From Microcaldota archaeon (GTDB lineage: Archaea > Micrarchaeota > Micrarchaeia > Micrarchaeales > Micrarchaeaceae): a stretch of DNA of 64,000 nt. The stretch covers positions 1 through 64,000 of the forward strand of contig JAJZVQ010000002.1 in the NCBI GenBank assembly GCA_021845575.1. The letters run 5' to 3'. This document shows positions 3,874-57,747 of the stretch, piece by piece (positions within the stretch are counted from its first letter, which is position 1; every line of letters begins with the position of its first letter). Under the pieces are notes generated by a model. That model was not told where the DNA came from and did no database searches. It was given only the letters and a program-made list of their open reading frames with translations. Made by a program: the position numbers and the translations under genes.

Positions 3874-4914
3874 ATGCAGATTGATTCGGGCTTTATAGAG
3901 AGCGTATTTTCATACGCTTATTCCTCCGTGTCTAATTATATGAATAATACGGCGGCTTATGCTGTCTCTTTGGTAATCGCATTTATCGTGTTTGCAATAC
4001 TTCTCAGTTTGCTGGTCGTGCTGTTTGTTTACCTTTTCGGCTGGGGGGAAAGAAAAATAATGGCAAGAATCCAGTCAAGACATGGCCCCACATATGTTGG
4101 AAAATTCGGCATACTGCAGAATATGGCGGATGTGGTGAAACTGCTTTCAAAAGAGCACATAATTCCGGACCAGTCGGACAAACCCCTTTTTCAGATGGTG
4201 CTTCCGATAATTTACGCTCTTTTTATGATGATCTTGGCTTTTATTCCGTTCACGGGCGGCTTTGTGGGGATTGGAAGCACGATAAGCCTGCTTGTTATTT
4301 TCGCGCTTCTTTCCTTTTCGCCGTTGTTGCTGTTTCTGGCGGGATGGACGAGCGGAAACAAATTTGGTTCTATAAGCGCCCAGAGGTCCGTAATGGTAAT
4401 GGTGAGCTATGAAATACCTATGCTTCTTGTTGTTGTGGCAGTCGCCATGCTGGCGCACAGTTTCAGCCTTATAAACATAGTCAACGCACAAGGGACCCTC
4501 TGGTTTGCCATATTGATGCCAATCGGATTTATTGTGTTTTTTATCACTATGCTCGCGGAGCTTGAAAGGCCGCCATTCGATGTCAGGGAAGCGGACAACG
4601 AACTTATCGCAGGCTGGCTTACTGACGTGAGCGCACCTTATTACAGCCTTGCCTTGTTTCTCGATTACACCAGAATGTTTGTGGGCACTTTGCTAATATC
4701 GATATTATTTTTGGGTGGGTGGGGTGGCCCTTCATTTTTGCCCGCCTTTGCCTGGATTTTTATAAAGGTAATCGCATTGAGCGTATTCATCATAATAATA
4801 AGGGCTACTACTGTCAGAATGAAAATTGACAGAATATTGAGGACAGGTTGGACATATATGATTGCGCTGTCGGTATTAAATTTGATTGCGACATTTTTGA
4901 TTTTTGCCAAGTGA
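3874..4914 (+). CDS. nuoH: NADH-quinone oxidoreductase subunit H (complex I)
   Basis: A 346-aa membrane subunit with about eight hydrophobic segments. Signature blocks are GERKIMARIQSRHGP after the first membrane helix and AELERPPFDVREADNELIAGW, the quinone-cavity loop. NuoH links the peripheral arm to the proton-pumping arm and forms much of the quinone site. First gene of a seven-gene operon transcribed away from nth; the short upstream gap is AT-rich with a possible TATA stretch (AAATAAATTAAATT). No nuoA-G lies upstream here. Confidence 0.95.
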   Translation: MQIDSGFIESVFSYAYSSVSNYMNNTAAYAVSLVIAFIVFAILLSLLVVLFVYLFGWGERKIMARIQSRHGPTYVGKFGILQNMADVVKLLSKEHIIPDQSDKPLFQMVLPIIYALFMMILAFIPFTGGFVGIGSTISLLVIFALLSFSPLLLFLAGWTSGNKFGSISAQRSVMVMVSYEIPMLLVVVAVAMLAHSFSLINIVNAQGTLWFAILMPIGFIVFFITMLAELERPPFDVREADNELIAGWLTDVSAPYYSLALFLDYTRMFVGTLLISILFLGGWGGPSFLPAFAWIFIKVIALSVFIIIIRATTVRMKIDRILRTGWTYMIALSVLNLIATFLIFAK

Positions 4915-4954
4915 GTAATTTTATATAAGTTATTGGTTATATTAATGTGATGAG

Positions 4955-5320
4955 ATGATTATGGAAAAGCCCGTCGGAAAATCGATAAAGGCGATGTTTG
5001 AAAAGCCGTTTACGCTTGAATACCCCGAAAAGAGGGAGAGGCTTACTGATAATTATAGGGGAATCCACAAGCTTGACATGAAAACCTGCATAAGCTGCGG
5101 TGCTTGCGCAAGAATCTGCCCAAACCAAACAATAACCATGGTTGACACTGAGACAGAAAAAGGGGTAAAGAAAATGCCCCTGGTCAACCTTGAAAGGTGC
5201 CTGTTCTGTGCATTTTGCGAGGAAGTGTGCCCTACTAAATGCCTGGTACTCACAAAAAGTTATGATTATGAGAGATACGACAGAAGGGAGTATGCGCTAA
5301 GACCCGAGGATTTGAAGTGA
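4955..5320 (+). CDS. nuoI: NADH-quinone oxidoreductase subunit I (2x[4Fe-4S])
   Basis: A 121-aa ferredoxin-like subunit with two Cys-X2-Cys-X2-Cys-X3-Cys-Pro motifs: CISCGACARICP and CLFCAFCEEVCP. In complex I these hold clusters N6a and N6b, passing electrons toward N2 and quinone. It lacks long extensions. The start is the ATG at 4955 or the one at 4961; a GTGATGAG ribosome-binding site precedes both. It is the only hydrophilic complex I subunit in the operon, so electrons must come from subunits encoded elsewhere or from a ferredoxin/F420-type donor. Confidence 0.94.
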   Translation: MIMEKPVGKSIKAMFEKPFTLEYPEKRERLTDNYRGIHKLDMKTCISCGACARICPNQTITMVDTETEKGVKKMPLVNLERCLFCAFCEEVCPTKCLVLTKSYDYERYDRREYALRPEDLK

Positions 5321-5324
5321 ATGC

Positions 5325-5837
5325 ATGATTATAGCAATTGTTATACTGATAATGGCTTTGGAGATTGCCGCCGCAATAATGGTATTCGCATTGAAGGATA
5401 TAATGCATTCCGCTCTCGCACTTTCCGTGCTTTTTTTTGGAAACTCTCTTGCATTTCTTTTCCTTTCGCAGCCCGTGCTCGCAATAATACAACTGCTTGT
5501 GATGGTAGGGGGCATAAGCACGTATATATTCATAGGGGTTTCTTCAGTTTCCTATTCTAATTTTAGGCATACGAGGTATGCGGCGCTTGCGGCATTGGCA
5601 ACGCTGATCTTTTTCCTGATCTCTTTTCCGTTGCTTATCCGACCAACAAATAACTTGTTTTACGGTACTGCAATGAACGAAAGTATTTTAAAAAGCGATT
5701 ATGTTAGCAGCTTTGCCGTTTCTCCGCCAAATTACATGACGGCAAATATCCCCTTCTTCTATCTTTTGTCTGTGCTTCTTTTCGGCGTTGCGCTTGCCTC
5801 TATAGTCATGATTAAAAAATTGGGTGAAGATAAATGA
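5325..5837 (+). CDS. nuoJ: NADH-quinone oxidoreductase subunit J
   Basis: A 170-aa membrane subunit with five hydrophobic segments. The block QPVLAIIQLLVMVGGISTYIF matches the NuoJ region around the pi-bulge third helix involved in conformational coupling. Its stop overlaps the nuoK start by 4 bases (ATGA), implying translational coupling. The starting ATG lies 4 bases after the nuoI stop. Confidence 0.9.
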   Translation: MIIAIVILIMALEIAAAIMVFALKDIMHSALALSVLFFGNSLAFLFLSQPVLAIIQLLVMVGGISTYIFIGVSSVSYSNFRHTRYAALAALATLIFFLISFPLLIRPTNNLFYGTAMNESILKSDYVSSFAVSPPNYMTANIPFFYLLSVLLFGVALASIVMIKKLGEDK

Positions 5838-6133
5838 TAGAATACTTTATGCTTTTGAGTATTGCCTTGTTTGCGATAGGAATAAGCGGAATTGCGGTAA
5901 GCAGGCATTTTTTGATAATGGTTTTCTCTATCGAGATAATGATTATCGCGAGCTCGCTTTTTGCACTTTCGGTATTCTCGGGATTCCTGTATTACGGAAA
6001 TATCGTGCTTCTGCTCGTGTTCTTTTGGAGCATAGCGGCAGTAGATATAATCGCCGCAATGGTGTTCTACAGATACCTTGTAAGAACAAAAATGAGCCTT
6101 GATGTTACAAAACTTTCAGAGTATAAAGATTGA
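5834..6133 (+). CDS. nuoK: NADH-quinone oxidoreductase subunit K
   Basis: A 99-aa three-helix membrane subunit, usual NuoK length. The second helix carries the conserved glutamate in VFSIEIMIIASSLFALSVF, and a second acidic residue lies in SIAAVDIIAAMVFYRY; these glutamate/aspartate positions form part of the antiporter-like hydrophilic axis. It overlaps nuoJ by 4 bases and is followed closely by nuoL. Confidence 0.92.
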   Translation: MIEYFMLLSIALFAIGISGIAVSRHFLIMVFSIEIMIIASSLFALSVFSGFLYYGNIVLLLVFFWSIAAVDIIAAMVFYRYLVRTKMSLDVTKLSEYKD

Positions 6134-6137
6134 TAAT

Positions 6138-7892
6138 ATGTTTGCGTTATTTGCTGTTTTGCCCGTTCTGATTTCTTCGCTGTTGATACTCGCTATAAGG
6201 AAAAACCGGGCGGCGAAATACATAGCTTTGGCTGGCAGCATAATCTCCCTTGCGTTTGCGGTGATTGTTTTCTTGACACCATCCGCCCAATATTCGGTGG
6301 ACTGGTTTTCGGCATCAAATCTCGTGTTTCATATAACTATTGTGACCTATGCCCTGAATAAAATCCTCCTGCTCCTGGTAGCTGCAATAACTCCATTAAT
6401 TTTTACATATTCTATCGGTTTTATGGATGTGCAAAGGGAGCAGAGCAGGTTTTATACCGAGATCGGCATATTCGCGGCGGCGATGATGCTTTTTGCGATA
6501 TCAGGAAATCTTATAACAATGTTTATAGCCTGGGAGGTGCTGGGCATTACGAGTTATCTCCTTATAGGTTTTTGGTATAATAAACAGAAACCCCCATTGG
6601 CAGCAAGAAAGTCTATAACCACTATCATAATAGGGGACATATTCTTCTTGATGGCCATAGTCGTAATACTCTCTGCTTACGGCACCACAAATATCGCATC
6701 GCTCATATCTACGGCGCAAAACAGCCATATTCAGCTGCCGCTTGATGCTTCCCTTATCTTCATACTGGTTGCAGTGTTTACCAAATCTGCGCAATTCCCG
6801 TTCCATGAATGGCTTTCAGATGCAATGGAGGGCCCTACGCCCGTTTCCGCATTCCTGCATTCTTCTACTATGGTAAAGGCGGGAGTATTTCTGGTAATGG
6901 TGCTGCTGCCATTGTACGCAATGGCGAATTTGGAATGGATATTGCTGGTTATAGGGATTGCCAGTGCGACAGTGGCGATAATGAACGCGCTTTCGGAACA
7001 CCACATCAAAAAAATTCTGGCTTATTCCACCATAGAGGATTTGTCGTTGATGTTGATAGCTTTGGGGTTGAATAACCTTCTTGCAGCCCTTCTGCTTTTC
7101 ATAGTCCAGACTTTTTATAAAGCCCTTTTGTTTATGGGCGCGGGTTACGTGATGAAAGCCAATGACGGAGAAGAGGATATATTCAAGGTATACAATATAA
7201 AGAAAAATAAAATGTTGTTTGCAACCGTGGTGATAGGCGTATTGTCGCTTGCGGGCGTGGCTCCTTTTGGAGGTTTCTTTGCAAAGGCTTCGCTTGATTC
7301 TTCTGCAACAGACATATATGTTTATGCGGCTCTGCTTGCATTTGACTTGCTGTCGAGCATGTATATATTTAGATGGCTGATTGTGCCTTCAGGCAAATCC
7401 GATAAAAACATGCAGTATAAAGCGCCGAGAAGCATGGCAATCCCTATGGCAATACTTGCCGCATTTACCGCCATTAGCGGAATTTCGTTTTTTGCGCTGG
7501 GCATGAATTCTGCACAGCCGTTAAACATCCTTGATATGGTTATAGAAAGCGGTTTAGTCATTTCAGGATTTATAATATCGTATCTGTTTTATGCAAAGGG
7601 CTTATTGCCTAACGTATCCTTATACTCCCTAAAATACAGAATCATGCACAACAGCTTCTTCTTGAATATCTTTTATTATAAAATTGCAGGATTTTTCGAG
7701 GAATTGGGGGAACAGTTCGATTTATTCGATCATTCGGTTAATAGACTGTTCAACATGTGCGGCGGAACCTTGGTGCGCTCTGGAAATTTTATTAGAAAGG
7801 TTGAAAACGGGAATGTGAATGTTTACGCGGTGATTTTCGTGTTCGGAATCGTCGCATTACTGGCGGTATTTGAGATTGTTGCGGTGCTATGA
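6138..7892 (+). CDS. nuoL: NADH-quinone oxidoreductase subunit L (antiporter-like)
   Basis: A 584-aa multi-spanning proton-pumping subunit. The core shows FIAWEVLGITSYLLIGFWY (conserved Glu of the pump channel), AQFPFHEWLSDAMEGPTPVSAFLHSSTMVKAG spread over residues 215-250 (with the channel Lys and His), and a later helix set. It is somewhat shorter than typical bacterial NuoL (about 610), probably in the lateral-helix region. I take the ATG at 6138, five bases after the nuoK stop, rather than one 39 bases upstream that would overlap nuoK. Overlaps nuoM by 4 bases. Confidence 0.93.
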   Translation: MFALFAVLPVLISSLLILAIRKNRAAKYIALAGSIISLAFAVIVFLTPSAQYSVDWFSASNLVFHITIVTYALNKILLLLVAAITPLIFTYSIGFMDVQREQSRFYTEIGIFAAAMMLFAISGNLITMFIAWEVLGITSYLLIGFWYNKQKPPLAARKSITTIIIGDIFFLMAIVVILSAYGTTNIASLISTAQNSHIQLPLDASLIFILVAVFTKSAQFPFHEWLSDAMEGPTPVSAFLHSSTMVKAGVFLVMVLLPLYAMANLEWILLVIGIASATVAIMNALSEHHIKKILAYSTIEDLSLMLIALGLNNLLAALLLFIVQTFYKALLFMGAGYVMKANDGEEDIFKVYNIKKNKMLFATVVIGVLSLAGVAPFGGFFAKASLDSSATDIYVYAALLAFDLLSSMYIFRWLIVPSGKSDKNMQYKAPRSMAIPMAILAAFTAISGISFFALGMNSAQPLNILDMVIESGLVISGFIISYLFYAKGLLPNVSLYSLKYRIMHNSFFLNIFYYKIAGFFEELGEQFDLFDHSVNRLFNMCGGTLVRSGNFIRKVENGNVNVYAVIFVFGIVALLAVFEIVAVL

Positions 7893-9277
7893 TGTTTCCG
7901 ATATTCTTGGCGTTGTTTGGCTTGCTTGTTGCGGCGCTTGCGGCAGGCATTGCTTTTAGAGAATTTACTAAAAAGATAGCCATCGTAGCATCTGGTTTTG
8001 TATTGGCTGCGATGACTGCTGTCATGTTAATCATGTTCTTTCTTCACATATCCATCTCGCAGAACTATATGTATATACCTCAATTAAATATGGGCCTCTC
8101 TTTCAGCATCAATCCTATATCCATCGTCCTTTTAATGATGTCCAGCATAGTGATATTTGTATCTGCTTTGATATCGAAGGATGGCGGGGCTTCGCTGCTG
8201 ACCATCATATTTGAAATTTCGGCATTAGGTTTATTTGCTTCATCCAACTTGCTCTTGTTTTATATATTTTGGGATATAGGGGTAATTGCGATATTTTTCA
8301 TAATAAACGTTTTTGGCTCTGCGGAGAGGAAAGGGGCGGCATTCAAGTTCCTCGTATACTCTATAGCGGCAAGTTCGCTGCTTCTCGCAGGCATACTCCT
8401 GATTTATTCTTATCTGCCCATTCATTCGTTTAATATTCAGTACATAATTCAAAACAGCCAATCCATACCTGAATTCGTACAATGGCTGATTTTTGTTTTC
8501 CTGGCCGCGGCTTTTATAATAAAAATGCCGATATTCCCCTTCCATTCGTGGATTGGTGGTGCTTATACTGAAGCACCGACCGGAGGTAGCATGCTTATTT
8601 CTGGCGTATTGTCTAAATACGGGGCGTATGGGCTGCTTCTATTGTTCCTCATGATGCCGATTGCACACCAGTTGGCAGGGTATATCGCGATTCTGGCCGG
8701 ATTTTCGGCTTTTTATGCCATATTCGTGGCAATCGGACAGATTGATATTAAAATGATGTTTGCATATCTGAGCATGGCTGAGATGGCGATAATAACCTTG
8801 GGGATAACGTCATTTACGGCACTTGGGGAGTCTGGCGCGCTTTACGGGATGCTTGCATACGGATTGGGAATGGCGTTGCTGTTCATGATTGCAGGTTCGG
8901 TGGAATACATGTTCAATTCGCGAAATATTTCAATAATAAAAGGTATAATCGAAAATTCAGTATCAACGACGTATTCCTTCCTTCTTGGGGCATTTTCTGC
9001 GACAGGCGTTCCATTAACTGCGGGATTTATTGCGGACCTGCTTATATTTATAGGGGCGTTCGAAGGATTCGGATTTTACGGGTTAATACCATTGGCTGCG
9101 ATTGTGTTGATTGGCGCATATCTTTATTTTGTGGCAAGCAAATCTTTTCTGTCGTCGCACAAACATACTGAAGCAGCCTTTTTAATAGAAAAGAAAGTGA
9201 AGGTAGGCTATGCAATACTTTTGTTTTTTATATTCTTTTTTGGAGTGTTCCCTTTTATATTTTTAAATGTTATATGA
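7889..9277 (+). CDS. nuoM: NADH-quinone oxidoreductase subunit M (antiporter-like)
   Basis: A 462-aa hydrophobic subunit with NuoM-type pump motifs: MPIFPFHSWIGGAYTEAPTG and the following SGVLSKYGAYGLL segment, where family members read PDAHTEAPTAGS and a conserved Lys lies in the discontinuous helix. The N-terminal pump position usually held by Glu appears as Asp (LFYIFWDIGVIAIFF), a conservative change worth checking by alignment. Starts in the ATGA overlap with nuoL. Confidence 0.93.
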   Translation: MMFPIFLALFGLLVAALAAGIAFREFTKKIAIVASGFVLAAMTAVMLIMFFLHISISQNYMYIPQLNMGLSFSINPISIVLLMMSSIVIFVSALISKDGGASLLTIIFEISALGLFASSNLLLFYIFWDIGVIAIFFIINVFGSAERKGAAFKFLVYSIAASSLLLAGILLIYSYLPIHSFNIQYIIQNSQSIPEFVQWLIFVFLAAAFIIKMPIFPFHSWIGGAYTEAPTGGSMLISGVLSKYGAYGLLLLFLMMPIAHQLAGYIAILAGFSAFYAIFVAIGQIDIKMMFAYLSMAEMAIITLGITSFTALGESGALYGMLAYGLGMALLFMIAGSVEYMFNSRNISIIKGIIENSVSTTYSFLLGAFSATGVPLTAGFIADLLIFIGAFEGFGFYGLIPLAAIVLIGAYLYFVASKSFLSSHKHTEAAFLIEKKVKVGYAILLFFIFFFGVFPFIFLNVI

Positions 9278-38192: not shown

Positions 38193-38446
38193 AAAATCAT
38201 TTTTAATGATCTTTCTAAATATTATAAGTTTGTGGCCCAAGACTGTGTGGCACTGAAAGGGGTTTCTTTTGTCGATGCCTAAAATAGGAGTTGATATAAT
38301 ATGGTATTGGCAATTAAACTTATATATCTATTTGATATATCTTATGAATAAATGTCGAACAGTCAATACAGGGTGGTGATTTACAGTAAGTTGGAGTGGT
38401 TTTGTGTGTTTAGGATTTTGTAAGGATATTTGTGTTGGTGGGAACA

Positions 38447-40726
38447 ATGGAAAAAAATATCAAAGAAAGATTGGGGGAATTCTTACGCAATAATAAAAAT
38501 CAGAAAAATAAAAATAGTGTGAATCCTCTGAACTTGCTTCTTTTGTCTGAAATGGAACTTGCAACCAAGCTGACTGATCCTGAAGTGCTTGATAATATTG
38601 CTATACTCATGGAAAAATCTCCGAAGATAGATGCCATTATAATAAATGGGGCTGTACCATATGTTCCAAATAAATATAGCAAAAGGAGGGGGGAATATAT
38701 GGACTTACTTGAAGGAAATGTGAGAGACAGGTACGGAATGGATGCATATACCCTTGTCAAGGGGAATGATGGAACTTCTAATGGTAGTGAAGGAGGCATA
38801 GATACGCTTGTTGAGGCTTTTTCCCTTGCTAAATATTCTATAAGGAATATAACAAAAAAAGCTGAAGAAAAAAATATACCAATTTATTACGTTTACTCTG
38901 ACAAAGATTACGAAAACGTAAATTCCATAATAAATGCGCTCACAAAATTGACTGAAGAATTGAAAAGGCAGGACGGAGAAAAGGATTATGACTCGTACAA
39001 AGAAAAATTGATGGAAAAAATAGCGAAAATGACCAATATAGATTCTTCGATAGTAAATTTTGTAACGAATAATGAATCGGGTTTTGCGCCTTCCGAATGG
39101 AAAAATAAAAGCAAGAAAGGAATAAAAAATAGGGCAAACAGCATTTACAACGGGCTATTGAGGAATATGCTGAGTTCCAACGGTACCGGAAAGATAACCA
39201 TATTAAACGGGCTATTCAACAATATTGCAATAAACGGAGTAAAAATTAATGTAATGCATGCGGTAAACGGAAGGTTCATGGGAAATACGTTTGTTACTCC
39301 TGTGCTTAATGGGCAAAAAAGGATAATTAATAAAATAGACGAGGATAAACAAAGGGAGGATGTTGCCGACATATATTTAAGAAGCCATGAAGCCATGCTT
39401 GATTTTACCGCATTGGAACATAATGATAAACCGATATGGATACTTGCCACGCCACCTTTACAAAACTATAAAGCGTTAAACAAAAGAAGCAACAGATGGA
39501 ACAAAACAGTCGACATAAAAAGGTTTGATCAGCATTTTGATAGCGGATTGGTTATGTTTTCGATTGAAGAAAACGGAAAGGCTTTCATCAGGCATGTTAA
39601 TTACGAAATGATAAGAAATAACGTTGACGTGTTCGAAAAGGAAAAAGAAGCATATAAAATAATTTTAATAGGCGATGCACATATAGGTGCACCAAGTCTT
39701 AAAGGAGGGGGAAATAAAAAAACGGCGTATGAATTGTTAGAGGGCATTTTACATGACATCAAATACGATAATATTAAAAAAGAGGACAAATATATCTTCT
39801 TCCTTGGGGATATGATACATGGAGGGGAGGACAAAAGCAATAAGTCAGATATATTGGAAAACAAGGCATATGGACCGAGTAAACGCATTGAGGAATTGAT
39901 AAACTTAAACGAAAACGTTGATTACGATAAGATTATTAAAAATATCAGAGAAAATATTTATGGCGTCTCGGTATACAATATAGGGGAACAGATCAAGGAA
40001 TCATTCAAATGGATAAATGACGTCGGTTCGCTTGCGAGCAGGGTCGCCGTTTTAGATGGGAACCATGTTCAAAAAGCAGCGAACAATATGTCTGAGGCAG
40101 GTATTTTGGGAGGGTTTCTTGAAGTAAACGGAGTAAAGGTGGATTATCCTGACAAATTGGTTCTTAGAGACGAAAAACATTATATATTTGGTTACGAATC
40201 GAATTCTTTGCATAGTACCGGTTACAGATCAACAGATGGTGGCAGGGCAAATGTAGATTATATTGTAAAAACCGGAAGCAGTGCGGTGCTGCAATTTGCG
40301 GGAGACGAACATATGCTCCATCTTAATATTGCGGATAAGGGGATTAATGGAAAACAGGAGTCTCTTGTAGCAATAAAACCCCCAAGCATTCAAGAGCGTA
40401 CAACTTTTGAAGAAAAAATACTGAAGAAAGGAAAATCGATTCAGGGCTATGTTGCGTTATATATCCCGAAGGATCGCTCGATTGGAACGGGATACATAAA
40501 AGTGGAGGTTATACCAGAAAATGCGATTGGCCTTGTACTAGATAAGGTAGGGGGATCGGAAATAGAAAAGATTGCAAAACTGGAATTTATAGAAAGGATA
40601 TTGCCCAAAATTTCCGAAAAAAAAGAAACAAAGATAGGAAAAAAATATTATGACGAACTAATAAGAAAAAAAGAGGAGTTGAGAAACGGGCTGGGGCTTG
40701 CTTCAAGGAAAAAGGTTATTGGGTAG
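38447..40726 (+). CDS. Duplicated metallophosphoesterase protein (one degenerate, one active-looking domain)
   Basis: About 759 aa. The C-terminal half carries calcineurin-type metal motifs: IGDAHIGAP (residue ~409), FLGDMIHGGED (~454), VAVLDGNHVQKA (~537) and FAGDEHMLHL (~622). The N-terminal half has the same outline without the metal residues (IDAIIINGAVPYVPNK; IPIYYVYSDKDYEN), and both halves end in a similar ..PP.(I/L)Q... segment. This suggests an internal duplication with one dead unit, as in some nuclease or polymerase subunits. Start ATG at 38447 with GGTGGG upstream. Function unknown; a nuclease is one possibility. Confidence 0.78.
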   Translation: MEKNIKERLGEFLRNNKNQKNKNSVNPLNLLLLSEMELATKLTDPEVLDNIAILMEKSPKIDAIIINGAVPYVPNKYSKRRGEYMDLLEGNVRDRYGMDAYTLVKGNDGTSNGSEGGIDTLVEAFSLAKYSIRNITKKAEEKNIPIYYVYSDKDYENVNSIINALTKLTEELKRQDGEKDYDSYKEKLMEKIAKMTNIDSSIVNFVTNNESGFAPSEWKNKSKKGIKNRANSIYNGLLRNMLSSNGTGKITILNGLFNNIAINGVKINVMHAVNGRFMGNTFVTPVLNGQKRIINKIDEDKQREDVADIYLRSHEAMLDFTALEHNDKPIWILATPPLQNYKALNKRSNRWNKTVDIKRFDQHFDSGLVMFSIEENGKAFIRHVNYEMIRNNVDVFEKEKEAYKIILIGDAHIGAPSLKGGGNKKTAYELLEGILHDIKYDNIKKEDKYIFFLGDMIHGGEDKSNKSDILENKAYGPSKRIEELINLNENVDYDKIIKNIRENIYGVSVYNIGEQIKESFKWINDVGSLASRVAVLDGNHVQKAANNMSEAGILGGFLEVNGVKVDYPDKLVLRDEKHYIFGYESNSLHSTGYRSTDGGRANVDYIVKTGSSAVLQFAGDEHMLHLNIADKGINGKQESLVAIKPPSIQERTTFEEKILKKGKSIQGYVALYIPKDRSIGTGYIKVEVIPENAIGLVLDKVGGSEIEKIAKLEFIERILPKISEKKETKIGKKYYDELIRKKEELRNGLGLASRKKVIG

Positions 40727-48937: not shown

Positions 48938-49936
48938 TTATCCTATATTTATGCTTGCCCTATCAATCTCTTTATTTTTGGCAATTTCAACTATCTGGCT
49001 TTTTTCTTGCAATCTTAATTTATAAATAAGCAGCGTTGCACCATTCACCGCATTAACATAATCTGCCTTTTCAAATGCAGAAGCACCTTTATAATTAACA
49101 TCCTCAATCACTCCAGATATCCCGCGATTATAACTAGCAATTACTAAAGAAACCATGTCCTGAAGTTTTGGATCAGGTTGCACCCCTTCCAACAAATCTG
49201 AAAAATATTTAATTATACTGTTTTTGCCATCATTACCAATTAATTTTGTTACTGCCTCATTTAAAATTGCAGTGCCTGCGCCGATATTCATTTTAGGATT
49301 AAATACATTTTCCCAATTAAGATTATACTTTTCAAAATGTATTGGATTTATCTGCATAAGCCCTGCTGCGCCAACATCTGATTTTTCATAATTTTTACCC
49401 GCAGATTCAATCATAATAATGCCACAGATAAGTTCTGGAGGGAGATTATACTCTTTTGCGATAGGTTTTACCTCCTCCCAGAATTTTTCTATGACGCCGC
49501 TTGCAATTTCTACATTAACATTTTTACTGTATTTGCCGTATTTTGCTATTATTTCATGGATCGGAATAGTTTTTGGTGCGTACATTAAAACGAAATTATT
49601 TTGTTTAACTCTCTGTCCTCCCCATAACTCTTTATTCATTTTAGTTGAATAAACAAAAGGCAATAAGGATATGTGATTTTTATTCTGTTCAACCAATCGA
49701 TAAGTCAACCTTTTCTTATTTTCAATATGCTTATATCCCTTGTTTAATAAAATAGTGGCTGCAGGTTTTCCTGATTCTGATACTGATACTGGTTTTGAAA
49801 TATTCGGTGCCGTCAAAGAAGCCACGCCAACAAATGCCGTAAGCGCAACTATACCTAAGGCTGCCTTGACTTTTTTAACCTTCTCTATGGCCTTTAAATT
49901 TTTCCTTGTTTTTTCTATGTCTATCGATTTATCCAC
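48938..49936 (-). CDS. Secreted lytic transglycosylase (SLT/lysozyme-like)
   Basis: A 332-aa protein with an N-terminal signal (KKVKAALGIVALTAFVGVASL) and a C-terminal SLT domain (about 150-310). The catalytic Glu is in CGIIMIESAGK (E177), followed by GAAGLMQINP and the far part LVIASYNRGISGV, the three SLT signatures. The enzyme family cleaves the glycan backbone of bacterial peptidoglycan. The middle (about 60-150) is of unknown type. The start is GTG at 49936; there is no in-frame ATG until residue 100. Very unexpected in an archaeon. Confidence 0.92.
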   Translation of the reverse strand: MDKSIDIEKTRKNLKAIEKVKKVKAALGIVALTAFVGVASLTAPNISKPVSVSESGKPAATILLNKGYKHIENKKRLTYRLVEQNKNHISLLPFVYSTKMNKELWGGQRVKQNNFVLMYAPKTIPIHEIIAKYGKYSKNVNVEIASGVIEKFWEEVKPIAKEYNLPPELICGIIMIESAGKNYEKSDVGAAGLMQINPIHFEKYNLNWENVFNPKMNIGAGTAILNEAVTKLIGNDGKNSIIKYFSDLLEGVQPDPKLQDMVSLVIASYNRGISGVIEDVNYKGASAFEKADYVNAVNGATLLIYKLRLQEKSQIVEIAKNKEIDRASINIG

Positions 49937-50082
49937 CGTTATGCGCCTCTTTTCAAACTTATCCTGTCCTAAATCTCCTAAATATCTAATAATCTTTTAA
50001 TATTCTATTTATCTAAATATTTATACCTAATCACAAAAACGGCGGCGCTATCAAATAACCTGTTCAAGGAAAACCAAGTTCC

Positions 50083-51012
50083 CTATTTTGTCATTACTTT
50101 ACATGAATCCTTTTCGACAATTAGCAAAACTTCTGATTGTGAAACAATTTTATTTCCCGTTTCGACCAGTACAGGGTTTCTTTTTAGCGCCCCTGTTTTT
50201 ACAAGTTCTTGTATTCCAGAATAAAGTGCAAATTTTGATCCCGCCATTTCCGCAAGCCACCTAGCAGCAAACGGCTCATTAGCGTATCTCTCTTTTATTT
50301 TAGCCAAAATATTTCTGGATATTTGGGATCTTGTCTGTGTATCCTCTACATATGTATATATTTCACATAGGTCTCCATCGGTCACAAACCCTTTTCCTGA
50401 AGAGATAGTGGCAAAAGGCTCTATGGCAACCACCATACCCTCTTTGAGTTCTGTTTCATTATCGTCCTCGTAGTTAGGTATAAATATTCCTCCATGCAAA
50501 TTATTTTTTTCGACACTGTGCCCGCCAAGATTTCTTATGGGAATCATCCCAAATTTTTTTATACTATCTTCTATAATTTTCCCCACCTCTTTTGCTTTTA
50601 TCCCGTCTTTTATGCTGCTTATTGCATTTTCAAGTGCACTCTCGGTCGCTTCCAAAAGATTTTGATTTTCTCCAGACAAATCAACAGTGACTGCGCAATC
50701 GCCATAAAATCCTTCCTTCTCTGCCCCAAAATCTATTTTTACGACGTCTCTCTCTCCAAATACCCTATCATCATCTAAAGACGGAGTATAATGTGCCGCC
50801 TCGCTGTTTATAGACAAATTCAAGGGAAATGCCAGTCCAAACCCGCTGTCTAAGACAAATTTTTCAATACTTTCGGCAATATCCAATGCCTTCGCCCCAG
50901 GTTTTACTATATCCTTCGCCTTCATGATTGCTTTGTACGAAATTCTTCCTACGTCTTCGAGAATTTTTTCGTTACCCGTTCCTGTACCATTTTCCGTTTT
51001 TTCTTCATTCAT
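50083..51012 (-). CDS. map: Methionine aminopeptidase (type II)
   Basis: A 309-aa metalloprotease removing the N-terminal Met of new proteins. Metal ligands are visible: KIDFGAEKEGFYGDCAVTV (two Asp), GGHSVEKNNLHGG (His), VVAIEPFATI (Glu) and the last Glu in LLIVEKDS. The winged insertion (NEPFAARWLAEMAGSKFALYSGIQELVK) marks type II. Follows polB with a 19-base gap, probably one transcript. Confidence 0.95.
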   Translation of the reverse strand: MNEEKTENGTGTGNEKILEDVGRISYKAIMKAKDIVKPGAKALDIAESIEKFVLDSGFGLAFPLNLSINSEAAHYTPSLDDDRVFGERDVVKIDFGAEKEGFYGDCAVTVDLSGENQNLLEATESALENAISSIKDGIKAKEVGKIIEDSIKKFGMIPIRNLGGHSVEKNNLHGGIFIPNYEDDNETELKEGMVVAIEPFATISSGKGFVTDGDLCEIYTYVEDTQTRSQISRNILAKIKERYANEPFAARWLAEMAGSKFALYSGIQELVKTGALKRNPVLVETGNKIVSQSEVLLIVEKDSCKVMTK

Positions 51013-51031: not shown

Positions 51032-53470
51032 TCATAATTTTTTCTGCGTCCCAATCCCCTTAAGTTCATCCTCATTCAAATTCAATTCTTTTAGTATCCT
51101 CATTGTAGCTGGCATTATCTGGTTGTTGATATAATATTCAGCATCATAATCCTTCGCAAATTCCAAAAGTTCTGCCTTGTCTGATATGGAACTGCCTGCC
51201 TTTGTTATCACATAACCTATTACAGAATGTTCAATTTCACTTCTTTTTTTCCCGTTTTCGATAGCCTTTTTCGCCGCCGCAAGTTCTGGGGATTTTATGT
51301 CATAACTATCTATACCTTTTCTTAAATGTGTGTTTATTACAAGTTCGCTCAAAGGAACTTCTCCATCCCTCAATTTTTTAATAACATCTTTTATAATCCC
51401 TATTGATTTCTCAATACTGCCCTCTTTAAGTATTGTCTCCAATACCTCCCTTTGCGTATCTCGCGCAATCTTCGACCAATCCCTTCTGACAAGTTCAAAT
51501 CCCCTTATTTTTATCCTTCCCGATTCTGTAATCATTGCATATTTCTTCTTTGCACCCAAAGAATTCGATTTTTCATTTTTTTTGCTGACAAAGATTCCCC
51601 TAACATAAAAATTTTCAAGTTCAAGTTCCATCCCATCAGGAAGTTTTCCGTTAAACTTTTTTATTAATTCAAGTACATAATCCTTAGTCTTGCTTTCGAG
51701 CAACAAAACAACCGAATCTGTATCAGCGTATAGAACGCGTAATCCCCCATTTTCCACTTCTTTGATAGCTTCTTGGATATATCTGCGACTATAAGCGGTT
51801 ATGCTGGCCGCACATTCCCTAGAATACCATCTAGATCTTGAATACCCCAGATACCCATAAAACGCATTTGCAGGGATTTTTAGTGCCTGTGACCTCGACC
51901 CCAAGGAGATATCCCCTGGGTTTTGCTTGTAAATCTTTTTTACTTTTTTCCTTTCGTTTATCAATATTGTAAGGATTGTAGGCATTATACTCTTACGGTT
52001 TTTACTAAATTTTATCCCTATCGGGGATTCATAATACTCTTCACAATCTACACATATTGAAGACGGGTCTATGTTGTGGGCAATTATTACCGAAGGATAA
52101 AGACTTTTAAAATCAAATATCGCCAAATTATTGTACACTCCGGGATCAGGTGTCTTTACAAATGCCCCTTCAACCGGATTTTGCAGTCTTCTCCTTATTT
52201 CTTTTTCGTCAGGTTTATTGGGGATTATCTCGTTAAACAGGAACGCATACCTCATTAGCATATATTCCACAAGCTGCCCTGTAGTGGAAACGGATGTGTC
52301 GCTTATCATACTCCCAGTAATTCTTGAAAGTTCAATCATGATCGGAAAAAAGGTATCGTAAACCTTCTGTAGTGCGAAGGAATCATCAAGATTGTATTCT
52401 GCAAGGGTTTTCCTGTCCTCTTCTTCCCCGTCCCACATATTATAAATCTCTTGTTTTTGTATACTCAGTTTTTTCCCGCCTATCTCTTCATAAACATTCT
52501 TCAGCGTATAACTGTTAAGCTTGAGAAGATGTTCTGCCGCATCGACAACAGCAATAAATTTTATAACCAAATACATATCTATATGTACTCTTCCGCCTAT
52601 TTTTACCTTGTTCACAAGCCCGTGTTTTTCTATTCTGGTATCTCCAAAATTTCTACTTAGGTTAAATTTTATACCGAGTACATTTGCCCTTTTAATCAGA
52701 TAATCAATATCAAAATTTGCCGAATTATACCCCGACAGGACATCAACATCAAGCTCGTTTACCACATCTAAAAATCTTTTGATTGATTCTGCCTCATCCT
52801 TTACCTGTACCACAAAAGGCAATCCAATATTTTTATAAGTTATTACCTTGCTCTCTGTTTTTGATTGGGAACGGAAAGAATAGCTTATCATAAGGATAGG
52901 ATCTTTTTCAGGAATCGATTTTCCCCCAGGGTTATACGTTTCGATATCAAAACACATTATATTCAGTTCCTGTGCAGAATCTTCACTGCCATTTTCCATA
53001 GATATCAATTCATAATCCTCTTTTACAGCCACTCTGAATTTATATGTTTTAAATGGTATTATCCCCTTGTCTATCGCATACCTTTTCGCAAACGGAATGT
53101 CATATTCATAACATCTCCCATATCTACCAAGATATTCGCTGAATCGAGGAACTTCTGCGGGGTTGCTTAGGTATATCTGAAATAATTCTGTATTTACCCC
53201 TAATATTATTTTTGATACTTTTTTAATTTGAAGAGGTCTGATATTTTTCCCGTTTTCAGCAGGCAACGAAATTTTTTCAATATCTATGTTTTTTTCTGGG
53301 GAAAAATAAAAGTATGGTCTAAATTTCCTATCTATTATGTCATAGGAAAAAGCATCGTTGCCTTTTACGGTTATCCGTATATTGACCAATTCCATAGAAA
53401 AATAATCTATATTAAGCACTATACCCTCTACCTCCTTTATCTTCTCGCTATCAGAAAGTATTTCCCCCAT
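51032..53470 (-). CDS. polB: DNA polymerase, family B
   Basis: An 812-aa replicative polymerase. Exonuclease motif I is MCFDIETYNPGG, exo II YNSANFDIDYLI, exo III YNLDDSFALQKVY; polymerase motifs A FDFKSLYPSVII, B KIPANAFYGYLGYSRSRWYS and C YADTDSVVLL; then the thumb. No inteins. Reads with map downstream. Confidence 0.96.
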   Translation of the reverse strand: MGEILSDSEKIKEVEGIVLNIDYFSMELVNIRITVKGNDAFSYDIIDRKFRPYFYFSPEKNIDIEKISLPAENGKNIRPLQIKKVSKIILGVNTELFQIYLSNPAEVPRFSEYLGRYGRCYEYDIPFAKRYAIDKGIIPFKTYKFRVAVKEDYELISMENGSEDSAQELNIMCFDIETYNPGGKSIPEKDPILMISYSFRSQSKTESKVITYKNIGLPFVVQVKDEAESIKRFLDVVNELDVDVLSGYNSANFDIDYLIKRANVLGIKFNLSRNFGDTRIEKHGLVNKVKIGGRVHIDMYLVIKFIAVVDAAEHLLKLNSYTLKNVYEEIGGKKLSIQKQEIYNMWDGEEEDRKTLAEYNLDDSFALQKVYDTFFPIMIELSRITGSMISDTSVSTTGQLVEYMLMRYAFLFNEIIPNKPDEKEIRRRLQNPVEGAFVKTPDPGVYNNLAIFDFKSLYPSVIIAHNIDPSSICVDCEEYYESPIGIKFSKNRKSIMPTILTILINERKKVKKIYKQNPGDISLGSRSQALKIPANAFYGYLGYSRSRWYSRECAASITAYSRRYIQEAIKEVENGGLRVLYADTDSVVLLLESKTKDYVLELIKKFNGKLPDGMELELENFYVRGIFVSKKNEKSNSLGAKKKYAMITESGRIKIRGFELVRRDWSKIARDTQREVLETILKEGSIEKSIGIIKDVIKKLRDGEVPLSELVINTHLRKGIDSYDIKSPELAAAKKAIENGKKRSEIEHSVIGYVITKAGSSISDKAELLEFAKDYDAEYYINNQIMPATMRILKELNLNEDELKGIGTQKKL

Positions 53471-54702: not shown

Positions 54703-57471
54703 CTAGCTACATTCGCTGTATCCGCATTTTGGGCACGTGAAGCAGCCTTCTGCGGCCACCATAGCCGTTCCGCAGTTTGGGCAATTCGCTTCCCTTACAG
54801 GAGAGAATACATAGTCGTTAGCCTGTTCCTTTATCGAGGACATAGTAGACTCCTCTTCAGTGTTTTTATGCAAATTTTTTACTTCCTTAAGGCTCTTTTG
54901 CGAGTTATCAATAGTTCTAAGAACCTGCGAACTTTTGCTGCTATCCCTATATACTGTTATTCCCTTGCATCCGAGCTTGTATGCCAACATATAAGCATTT
55001 TCTATATCTTGAGGGGTCGCATAACGCGTAAAATTTATTGTTTTTGATACCGCATTATCAGTATATTTCTGGAACGCAGCTTGCATCTTTACATGCCATT
55101 CAGGAGCTATGTCGTGTGCAGTAACAAACAATTTCCTTATCTGTTCAGGTATCTCTTCAATCTCTTGAATTGAAGTTTTTCCAGCAAGCTTCTTAATCAA
55201 CTCCTCAGAATAAAAATTTTGTTCGAGTGCATATCTCTCGAATTCGGTATTCACTTCTATTAAATTTGAACCAAGACTTTCTTTAACATTCCTCATATAG
55301 ACAACTGAAAATATCGGCTCTATTCCCTGCGAAGCGCCGCCAGAAATTATACTTATCGTGCCTGTTGGAGCTATTGTAGTCACTGTAGAATTTCTAAGGG
55401 GTTTGTATCCGAGTTTAGCCCATATGCTATTTTTGAATTCGGGAAATGGGCCCCTTTCCGTCGCAAGCTCCTCGCTAGTTTTCCTTGCAGTTTCGGTAAT
55501 GACTTTCATCACCTTTTCCGCAATCATTACCGCCTCGTTGCTGTCATATCTCACGCCAAGTTTTATAAGCAAATCCGCCCACCCCATGACCCCCAAACCG
55601 ACTCTTCTTATTGCCTTAGTAGTTTCTTCTATCTGTTTTATTGGATACTTGTTTACTTCTATAACATTATCTAGAAACCTTATTCCTATCCTCACCGTAT
55701 TTCTAAGTTCTTCCCAGTCTATCTCATAATTATGGTCAACTGTCTTGACCATTTTTGAAAGATTGATTGATCCGAGATTGCACGAATCATAAGGATATAA
55801 TGGTTGTTCGCCGCAATTATGGTTTATAAATCCATTGGCCACGTAGATATTGTATGCAGGGACAGAAAAATCAAAAAAATCATCTTCTATTGTAATAAGC
55901 TCCTTTATGGGCAGAAAATCCAGTTCAAATTTTTTTCTTTCTTCATTGAACGAAATATTTGCTATCCTATCATTAATAAAAAGCTTGTCCGCCCTGCTCC
56001 ATCCTCCCTCAGTCAGAATTCTATGCTCTAAAGTTACTGTTATCTCATTTCCGTCAACGATTATCCTGACTCCTTTTTTCTTTCCGACATGCCATATTGT
56101 TGCATTTTGTTCTATAAATACGACTTCTTTTGAATTTGTAGTTGCAGGAACCATAATTTTAGTAGGGTATGACAATTCGCCTGCACATTTTACAATGCCT
56201 CCATTAATCAAAATATTCATCTGTTTGTCGACTCTTGCAGCACATCTTGCAACTTCATATAACTCTTTCGCAGATTTTAATCCAGAAGAGGTAAATATCA
56301 TTGAATCTTTAGAAACACAAGGATTTGTGGATTCTATAGGTCCATAACTAGGAACAGGATTCGAATAACTCGAATTCATTCTGTCTATAAATACAATCCC
56401 AGGGTCTCCAGTCTTCCACGCCATTGTTATTATTAAGTTCCATACTGCCCTTGCATTTAGTGTTCCAACAGGTTTTTGCGTTTTTGGATTTATCAATTCA
56501 TACCCTTTATTATCGTTTAACGATTTCATAAATTTGTCTGTTATGGCAATTGATATATTGAAGTTTCTTAATGCTCCCTCGGTCTCTTTTGACATTATGA
56601 AATTAAGAATGTCCGGGTGATCCACCCTCAATATTCCCATATTCGCGCCCCTTCTCTTCCCGCCTTGTTTTATTTGTTCTGTGGCGCTATCAAATATCCT
56701 CATGAATGAAAGAGGACCGGAAGAAACCCCACTAGTTCCCCTCACAATATCATTTGCAGGTCTAAGTCTGGAAAACGAAAATCCCGTACCGCCCCCACTT
56801 TTGTGGATAATTGCGGTATATTTTAATGCATCGAATATCTCCTCAATAGAATCCCCTACTGGCAACACAAAACATGCACTGAGCTGTCCTAATTTTGTCC
56901 CCGCATTCATAAGAGTCGGTGAATTAGGCATGAATTTAAATGATACCATAATATCAAAAAATTGTTCTGCTATTTTTTCTATTTCAGCGTTAGTTTTTCC
57001 AAATTCTTTTTCTGCTTCTGCTATCGCCATCGCAACTCTTCGGAATAACTGCCCGGGCGTTTCCACTACCTTTCCGCTACTATCTCTTAAAAGATATCTT
57101 GCAGCTAACACAATAAGGGAGTTTATAGGCAATTTGAGATCGTCTTCAGGTATCCCTAGTGACGCTTTAAAAAACCTTATCTCTGCACGTTTATTCCTAT
57201 ACAATATATACGCTTTTGCAACTGTCGCATCTGCATCCATAAGAACATTTTCCACAATATTCTGTATCTCCTCTACTTCGATTTCTTTTTTTCCTGTTTT
57301 GTTTATTTTATCTATAACAAGTTCTGCAACATTCAATGCTTTACTCTGAAGTTCCTTATCACTGTGCATAGGATAAACATTAATAAATGCCTTTTTTACA
57401 GCATTTGCAATTTTGTTTTCGTCAAAATCTACTACGGTCCCATTTCTTTTGATAACATTTTCAATCGCCAT
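54703..57471 (-). CDS. nrdJ: Ribonucleoside-diphosphate reductase, adenosylcobalamin-dependent (class II), with intein
   Basis: A 922-aa precursor for the B12-dependent reductase making dNTP precursors. ATP-cone near the N-terminus (KRNGTVVDFDENKIANAVKKAF), core motifs SACFVLPVGDSIEEIFD, GGGTGFSFSRLRP, and after the intein CGEQPLYPYDSCNLGSINL with the thiyl Cys; later APTGTISIISGGASQGIEP. The C-terminus has a Cys-rich zinc-like module (CPNCGTAMV, CFTCPKCGYSEC). The ATG at 57471 follows GGGTG; a TTG 12 bases earlier is possible. Confidence 0.95.
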   Translation of the reverse strand: MAIENVIKRNGTVVDFDENKIANAVKKAFINVYPMHSDKELQSKALNVAELVIDKINKTGKKEIEVEEIQNIVENVLMDADATVAKAYILYRNKRAEIRFFKASLGIPEDDLKLPINSLIVLAARYLLRDSSGKVVETPGQLFRRVAMAIAEAEKEFGKTNAEIEKIAEQFFDIMVSFKFMPNSPTLMNAGTKLGQLSACFVLPVGDSIEEIFDALKYTAIIHKSGGGTGFSFSRLRPANDIVRGTSGVSSGPLSFMRIFDSATEQIKQGGKRRGANMGILRVDHPDILNFIMSKETEGALRNFNISIAITDKFMKSLNDNKGYELINPKTQKPVGTLNARAVWNLIITMAWKTGDPGIVFIDRMNSSYSNPVPSYGPIESTNPCVSKDSMIFTSSGLKSAKELYEVARCAARVDKQMNILINGGIVKCAGELSYPTKIMVPATTNSKEVVFIEQNATIWHVGKKKGVRIIVDGNEITVTLEHRILTEGGWSRADKLFINDRIANISFNEERKKFELDFLPIKELITIEDDFFDFSVPAYNIYVANGFINHNCGEQPLYPYDSCNLGSINLSKMVKTVDHNYEIDWEELRNTVRIGIRFLDNVIEVNKYPIKQIEETTKAIRRVGLGVMGWADLLIKLGVRYDSNEAVMIAEKVMKVITETARKTSEELATERGPFPEFKNSIWAKLGYKPLRNSTVTTIAPTGTISIISGGASQGIEPIFSVVYMRNVKESLGSNLIEVNTEFERYALEQNFYSEELIKKLAGKTSIQEIEEIPEQIRKLFVTAHDIAPEWHVKMQAAFQKYTDNAVSKTINFTRYATPQDIENAYMLAYKLGCKGITVYRDSSKSSQVLRTIDNSQKSLKEVKNLHKNTEEESTMSSIKEQANDYVFSPVREANCPNCGTAMVAAEGCFTCPKCGYSECS
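55816..56319 (-). other. Mini-intein in nrdJ (168 aa)
   Basis: The intein interrupts STNP-C...N-CGEQP, directly before the conserved active-site Cys of NrdJ. Block A begins CVSKDSMIFTSSGLKSA, with a block B-like segment (GNEITVTLEHRILTEGGW) and the end DFSVPAYNIYVANGFINHN, with penultimate His and terminal Asn, then +1 Cys. It is 168 aa, too short for a homing endonuclease, and no such motif is seen. Confidence 0.92.
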
Positions 57472-57747
57472 TGCAACACCCAAACACAGATAAGAATAAG
57501 AAATAAGATTTATAACAAGTATTGCATCGAATTAATTAGCAGTGTAATCAAAGAACAAGATAACCTTTTTATTTGTTATTTTTTACCCTCCTATTTTTTA
57601 TATGCAGAACTTAGCAAGCCTTCTTCGGAGACAGGATAAAAGCGGCATAGGAGAACCGAGAAACATATAAAACATATCCTGATGTGATGATTGCACGAAC
57701 ATATCAAAATCCCATTCTCTTCTAGGAGAAAATGGCACCTTTCTCGA

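Follow-up and report, generated by a model that had tools for sequence, protein, structure and literature searches.

A predicted exported lytic transglycosylase encoded among core archaeal genes of a Micrarchaeota genome

The window, i.e., the whole stretch of 64,000 nucleotides analyzed here, comprises positions 1-64000 of a contig that is 64,940 bases long; the genome to which it belongs measures 779,283 bases and is 94.11% complete and 0.02% contaminated. We found an ORF of 332 codons at 48938-49936, starting at a GTG that is the earliest ATG, GTG, or TTG downstream of the preceding in-frame stop. These coordinates are exactly those of a preliminary description of this DNA; the coding strand is the minus strand, and the plus-strand reading of the same interval is riddled with stops. 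The protein has a hydrophobic segment, an orphan basic stretch, and a C-terminal SLT domain. The features of the locus are as follows.

48938-49936, minus strand: lytic transglycosylase gene, 332 amino acids, GTG start (ORF, Pfam SLT match, and predicted fold)
49946-49949, minus strand: GAGG, a possible ribosome-binding site 9 nt upstream of the GTG, proposed from inspection of the sequence
49808-49864, minus strand: hydrophobic segment for putative export or anchoring, residues 25-43 (19 residues averaging 2.06 in hydropathy, basic start, helix at residues 7-34 in the model)
49532-49798, minus strand: orphan basic region, residues 47-135 (no Pfam match, low-confidence model)
49070-49459, minus strand: SLT (GH23-like) catalytic domain, residues 160-289 (Pfam PF01464)
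49406-49408, minus strand: predicted catalytic glutamate E177, invariant in a 49-row alignment and aligned with MltE E64 in an alignment with EmtA/MltE, Slt70, and MltC
49343-49372, minus strand: motif GAAGLMQINP, residues 189-198 (G189, A190, G192 to Q195, and P198 invariant in the 49-row alignment)
49121-49138, minus strand: motif ASYNRG, residues 267-272 (Y269 nearly invariant; aligned with AYNAG of Slt70)
49058-49060, minus strand: Y293, aligned with MltE Y192 (49-row and E. coli alignments)
50083-51012, minus strand: upstream neighbor, an M24 (methionine aminopeptidase-like) peptidase (Pfam PF00557)
51032-53470, minus strand: archaeal family-B DNA polymerase, PolB (NCBIfam TIGR00592)

The SLT domain was the sole Pfam domain found at E values up to 0.1, scoring 65.2 bits against a curated cut-off of 21.3 (E = 5.2e-18), well above anything expected by chance, and the full-length MltC, EmtA, and Slt models of NCBIfam gave weak matches far below their cut-offs. 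The three motifs named in the preliminary description were all present, namely MIESAGK with E177, GAAGLMQINP, and ASYNRG. Family-1 lytic transglycosylases are marked by a catalytic Glu in ES, GLMQ, the Tyr of YN, and a C-terminal Tyr, and the SLT score, the motif set, and the predicted lysozyme-like fold of the window protein are those of this family. The 49-row alignment, which was also the basis of the AlphaFold2 model, consists of the window protein and 48 phage SLT domains; since the viral rows were fetched with the motif GAxGLMQ[LIV]xP itself, the invariance of that motif results from selection. The Pfam match and the alignment with the E. coli enzymes are independent of this selection. 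In the latter, the counterparts of E177, S186, and Y293 in E. coli MltE are E64, S73, and Y192, which PDB titles give as mutated positions, with E64Q titled inactive. Eight residues were common to EmtA, Slt70, and MltC (E177, S178, G192, M194, Q195, Y269, G272, and Y293), whereas N270 was matched in Slt70 and MltC but is Ala in EmtA. The preliminary description had also considered a folded product without activity; the catalytic residues appear intact in the alignment, and the gene product looks like an intact lytic transglycosylase that is presumably active.

The AlphaFold2 model was confident at residues of about 140-280 and 290-310, whereas residues 28-121 had pLDDT values below 50. Foldseek with this model ranked MltE first (E = 2e-5). 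With VIA-align, the best row was MltF (Z = 16.6, rmsd 2.9 across 161 residues), in keeping with the SLT identity first assigned to the gene, although SLT domains had gone into the model itself, and those of P. aeruginosa Slt (16.1), Slt70 (15.9), MltE (15.8), MltC (15.8), and a g-type lysozyme (14.7) were also among the best; the Z scores of 15.8 to 16.6 are the best rows for each murein enzyme, other PDB entries of the same enzymes being lower. E. coli MltE/EmtA, MltF, Slt70, and MltC thus resemble the window protein in predicted fold and aligned catalytic residues at about 16-25% identity in structural alignments, but the window protein adds the orphan basic N-terminus and an insertion of about 25 residues (236-262) ahead of the third motif. 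The fold class also takes in g-type lysozymes, for which a structure with NAG oligomers is known (3gxk), and one laboratory ARMAN consortium is described as including a fungus (PMC5468238), so that the enzyme might cut chitin or another GlcNAc polymer, e.g., that of fungal walls in acid biofilms. We consider such a substrate improbable, as the nearest folds of the model are murein transglycosylases and Pfam shows no chitin-binding domain.

The hydrophobic stretch at residues 25-43 is the most hydrophobic of the protein. The N-terminal signal proposed earlier may correspond to this segment, which by hydropathy stands out behind a basic start and has an ambiguous cleavage site. The product is probably exported, as far as its sequence indicates, and possibly tethered by an uncleaved segment. 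MltE carries a lipoprotein anchor, and an anchor of that type is absent here, since the window protein has zero cysteines. The catalytic part (residues 140-312) is acidic, with a pI of 5.0, and residues 47-139 have a pI of 10.1. As the preliminary description had stated, the 5′ half of the gene encodes no known domain, all Pfam matches at E = 0.1 being confined to residues 160-289; accordingly, no cell-wall-binding domain was found by Pfam at this threshold in the 332-aa protein. Modeled alone, the N-terminal region was strand-rich at low confidence (pLDDT 56), and this poorly modeled region may conceivably hold a novel binding domain. Its similarity to a profile of six relatives' N-termini was no better than that of shuffled sequences: 65 and 104 of 500 shuffles (two cuts) equaled the score of the window N-terminus, and 465 and 398 of 500 scored as high with the hydrophobic segment removed. 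An N-terminal domain common to the other small SLT proteins of the family, suggested by a 'YGKY' likeness to L039, was rejected because shuffles matched it.

The genes around the SLT gene are archaeal. One flank holds RadA, diphthine synthase, aIF2-alpha, and L44e, and the opposite flank holds PolB and RNase HII. A HAD hydrolase and two tRNAs are also in the surroundings; no viral or secretion genes were recognized among the scanned neighbors. Relatives of the M24 peptidase were found in all 41 genomes searched, its own included, and PolB directly adjoined it in 21 of 25 fetched loci (own included), two of the others having no PolB and two larger gaps. Of the 80 named PolB loci, which include short ones, 72 held the M24 peptidase, 66 next to PolB; these loci may overlap with the 25 M24 loci. 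The best 80 of 180 confirmed PolB relatives, obtained with search patterns derived from close kin, were Micrarchaeota-type records, including Candidatus Micrarchaeum sp. A_DKE (66%), six records labeled Marsarchaeota, and one labeled 'bacterium'. In the NCBI taxonomy, Candidatus Micrarchaeum belongs to the Micrarchaeaceae within Candidatus Micrarchaeales. A misassembled bacterial contig, named earlier as a possible source of the gene, was ruled out by the core archaeal flanks, the conserved M24-PolB pair, and the Micrarchaeota-type PolB relatives, and the genome can be taken as a real archaeal one. Among the 25 loci, an SLT relative beside the M24 peptidase occurred in the window's own locus only, and the 80 named PolB loci contained no SLT domain at E = 0.01 with a custom profile.

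We found a single copy of the SLT domain in this genome. The Mur ligase family PF08245 was not found in this 94%-complete genome, with the control positive in 12 of 14 named genomes; this agrees with the earlier view of an archaeon without murein, for which Mur ligase is the one marker family of murein synthesis considered. LysM, M23, and NlpC/P60 were likewise not found (controls positive in 10, 10, and 9 of the 14 named genomes, respectively), so the enzyme appears to stand alone rather than in an arsenal of these families. The absence of Mur ligase suggests that the cell probably has no murein of its own to remodel, and since the enzyme also looks intact, bacterial murein is its likeliest target.

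Building on the domain, the predicted fold, the conserved catalytic residues, the archaeal context, and the Mur ligase absence, all computed here, we favor, with some confidence, a family-1 lytic transglycosylase that is exported, probably membrane-tethered, and cuts bacterial murein. We infer its export, activity, extracellular bacterial target, and benefit as follows. The basic and hydrophobic N-terminus would direct the chain through Sec and then serve as an anchor or be cleaved, leaving the SLT domain facing outward. E177, as acid/base, would break the MurNAc-GlcNAc bond of murein; lytic transglycosylases cleave this bond leaving 1,6-anhydro-muramic ends. The wall of a touched or nearby bacterium would be weakened, and the gain may be nutrients from a lysed or leaking bacterium or the removal of a competitor. 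The interpretation given earlier, an intact and probably exported enzyme with a likely bacterial target, is supported in this form, whereas a recent bacterial or viral origin is not supported (see below). In a bolder version of the bacterial-murein reading, which we regard as unlikely, the cutter would be membrane-anchored and contact dependent, its orphan basic N-terminal domain would grip the bacterial surface, and some Micrarchaeota, cultured to date with archaeal partners, would additionally prey or live on walled bacteria.

Both the enzyme class and the idea of targeting bacteria are already published for Micrarchaeota. Chen et al. (PMC5864196, ISME J, online December 2017) described three Micrarchaeota genomes encoding a Sec-exportable lytic transglycosylase, which they took as evidence of targeting bacteria. 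Those enzymes share the phylum, class, and proposal (Sec export, aimed at bacteria) with the window protein; the passage describing them gives neither a sequence nor a test of fold or catalytic residues, and any of the three might be this very gene. The surprise is therefore smaller than the preliminary description had it. In other DPANN archaea, proteins with a transglycosylase domain have also been proposed to attach to or degrade bacterial walls, as in the passages on the large transglycosylase proteins that Pacearchaeota and Woesearchaeota encode (fam00969, with members of as much as 3,000 aa; Castelle et al., PMC8204110) and on a 'vampiristic' gene set (Vigneron et al., PMC9723730). By its described size, fam00969 is set apart from the 332-aa window protein. 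Three DPANN MAGs with a lytic transglycosylase are mentioned in PMC10936187, and PMC12352652, whose title states that archaeal peptidoglycan hydrolases kill bacteria, describes modular hydrolases in 175 archaeal genomes out of 3,706. These hydrolases, such as Woldo, are likewise archaeal murein cutters of patchy spread, for which action on bacteria is proposed or has been demonstrated; as described, the Woldo type combines a binding and a catalytic domain (M23 in Woldo), whereas the window protein has no recognized binding domain. As a hint of archaea attacking bacteria or feeding on them, the gene is thus solid but has precedents. The cultured relatives of this lineage are described with archaeal partners, Thermoplasmatales or Cuniculiplasma (PMC8975820, PMC5498576). 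If active, the window protein would be a compact, intact, and testable addition to a small set of archaeal wall-cutting proteins and would support reduced DPANN archaea interacting with bacteria too; with the idea itself in print, its value is that of a clean assay candidate, and in its lineage the cultured members rely on other archaea.

Among relatives, the same gene class was sought in sister genomes, as had been suggested earlier, and PF01464 was found in 7 of the 85 family genomes and in 58 of the 301 phylum genomes, the cut-off being exceeded in 54 of the latter; for genomes of at least 90% completeness, the counts are 3 of 32 and 20 of 96, respectively. Since many of the counted genomes are incomplete, part of this patchiness reflects sampling. 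A search with the protein itself matched 4 of 60 genomes, including its own, and its identity to nine related SLT proteins was 15-23%. Two other genera of the family each retain the SLT gene in a constant neighborhood (L036 with L038, L039 with L040), with 26-42% identity between the SLT proteins vs 44-81% between the neighbors; the two genera had no neighbor in common with each other or with the window. This spread suggests that the gene was gained or moved on several occasions and then diverged rapidly. The retention of the gene between the same neighbors in two other genera strengthens the bacterial-murein reading, as does the patchy spread, which resembles that of the weaponized hydrolases described in PMC12352652. 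The reading is weakened by the lack of a wall-binding domain by Pfam and of LysM, M23, and NlpC/P60 in the genome, by the described partners of cultured relatives being archaeal and not bacterial, by export being judged from hydropathy, and by the replacement of MltE S75 with V188, although Slt70 has V at this position too.

The strong divergence from the nine related proteins and a broken motif in one copy of the family would also suit a decaying relic that has lost its activity. We regard this as very improbable, given the full-length ORF, the intact catalytic positions, and the catalytic fold modeled with confidence. The copy with the broken motif belongs to a tandem SLT pair in L040 (G224; 7047-7865 and 7934-8779), the first member of which has a degenerate motif II, GQAGINI instead of GLMQxxP, and is perhaps losing activity. 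Three consecutive SLT frames lie at 5980-8275 of L045 (G140), and in the first of them a stop interrupts the match. Giant ORFs at 161-6220 of L042 (G010) and 3-5015 of L036 (G011) are 30-40% alike over stretches. That of G010 holds its SLT domain inside 2,019 aa and, unlike the window protein, is nearer to fam00969 in being large; in G011, two ORFs separate the 1,670-aa ORF from the SLT gene of that genome.

SLT domains are common in viruses. Thirteen PHROG families matched the window protein (best E = 2.4e-13), the majority of them being phage transglycosylases, endolysins, and lytic tail proteins. Matches were also obtained in 98 phage records, the top ones to SPbeta YomI-type proteins (E = 1e-6); SLT-domain relatives were found in at least 227 viral contigs, and the PRD1 transglycosylase was among the viral fold matches of the model. 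The gene might therefore have been captured from a virus, as a transglycosylase for virion entry or for lysis, and would then be either domesticated or the remnant of a provirus. We give this only a small chance: none of the 98 phage matches covers 80% of the query (the 15 listed cover 36%), a scan of viral contigs, which reaches no further than near relatives of the entire protein, gave no match, the flanking genes that could be recognized belong to the archaeal core or encode tRNAs, and codon use is unremarkable. The SLT gene ranked 34th of the window's own 41 ORFs from the odd end (z = +1.05 toward typical), with a lowish GC3 (z = -1.7), and recent transfer is thus unsupported by codon use; if the gene was acquired, this was probably not recent. 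As for the bacterial or viral origin considered in the preliminary description, a recent one is not supported, given the typical codon use, the nonviral scanned neighbors, and the empty scan of viral contigs for close relatives of the whole protein. A whole-protein search of genome contigs found no SLT relatives in named bacteria. An old viral origin is conceivable, since viral domain relatives abound. The SLT-domain phylogeny called for earlier was run with 61 rows: 33 of 80 phylum match rows (omitting L033 and 46 others), 22 of 80 phage loci, SPbeta YomI, two plasmid sequences, and three E. coli sequences. Its bootstrap has not settled, 32 of 58 inner branches were drawn open, and the window copy is unplaced; we claim no origin from this tree, and it does not count against a viral one.

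Three of four matching plasmid records were annotated as lytic transglycosylase domain proteins, and the genome has three matches to PF00437 (pilus/secretion-type ATPases). Both would fit a house-keeping role, in which the enzyme locally opens the surface glycans of its own cell or of an archaeal host for pili or secretion, as VirB1-like enzymes open murein. This role seems doubtful to us, with no secretion gene recognized among the scanned neighbors and no match in 78 of the 85 family genomes, some of them incomplete; moreover, we know of no archaeal envelope glycan that is a GlcNAc-MurNAc polymer. We rank the bacterial murein cutter above all four rivals, namely self-use, chitin cleavage, a virus origin, and decay.

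Several other loci of the window were observed. The ribonucleotide reductase large subunit gene at 54703-57483 on the minus strand (PF02867, E = 3.6e-138) carries an in-frame intein-like insert, which matches PF14890 below the cut-off (E = 5.6e-4, residues 461-556) and in translation starts with Cys and ends with HN-Cys. A 764-aa orphan ORF at 38432-40726 on the plus strand gave weak matches, the best to a PHROG DNA repair exonuclease (E = 2.3e-4), and its translation contains what we take to be metallophosphoesterase-like motifs. Complex-I-like genes (NADHdh, Proton_antipo_M) lie at 3874-7892 on the plus strand of this 779-kb DPANN genome.
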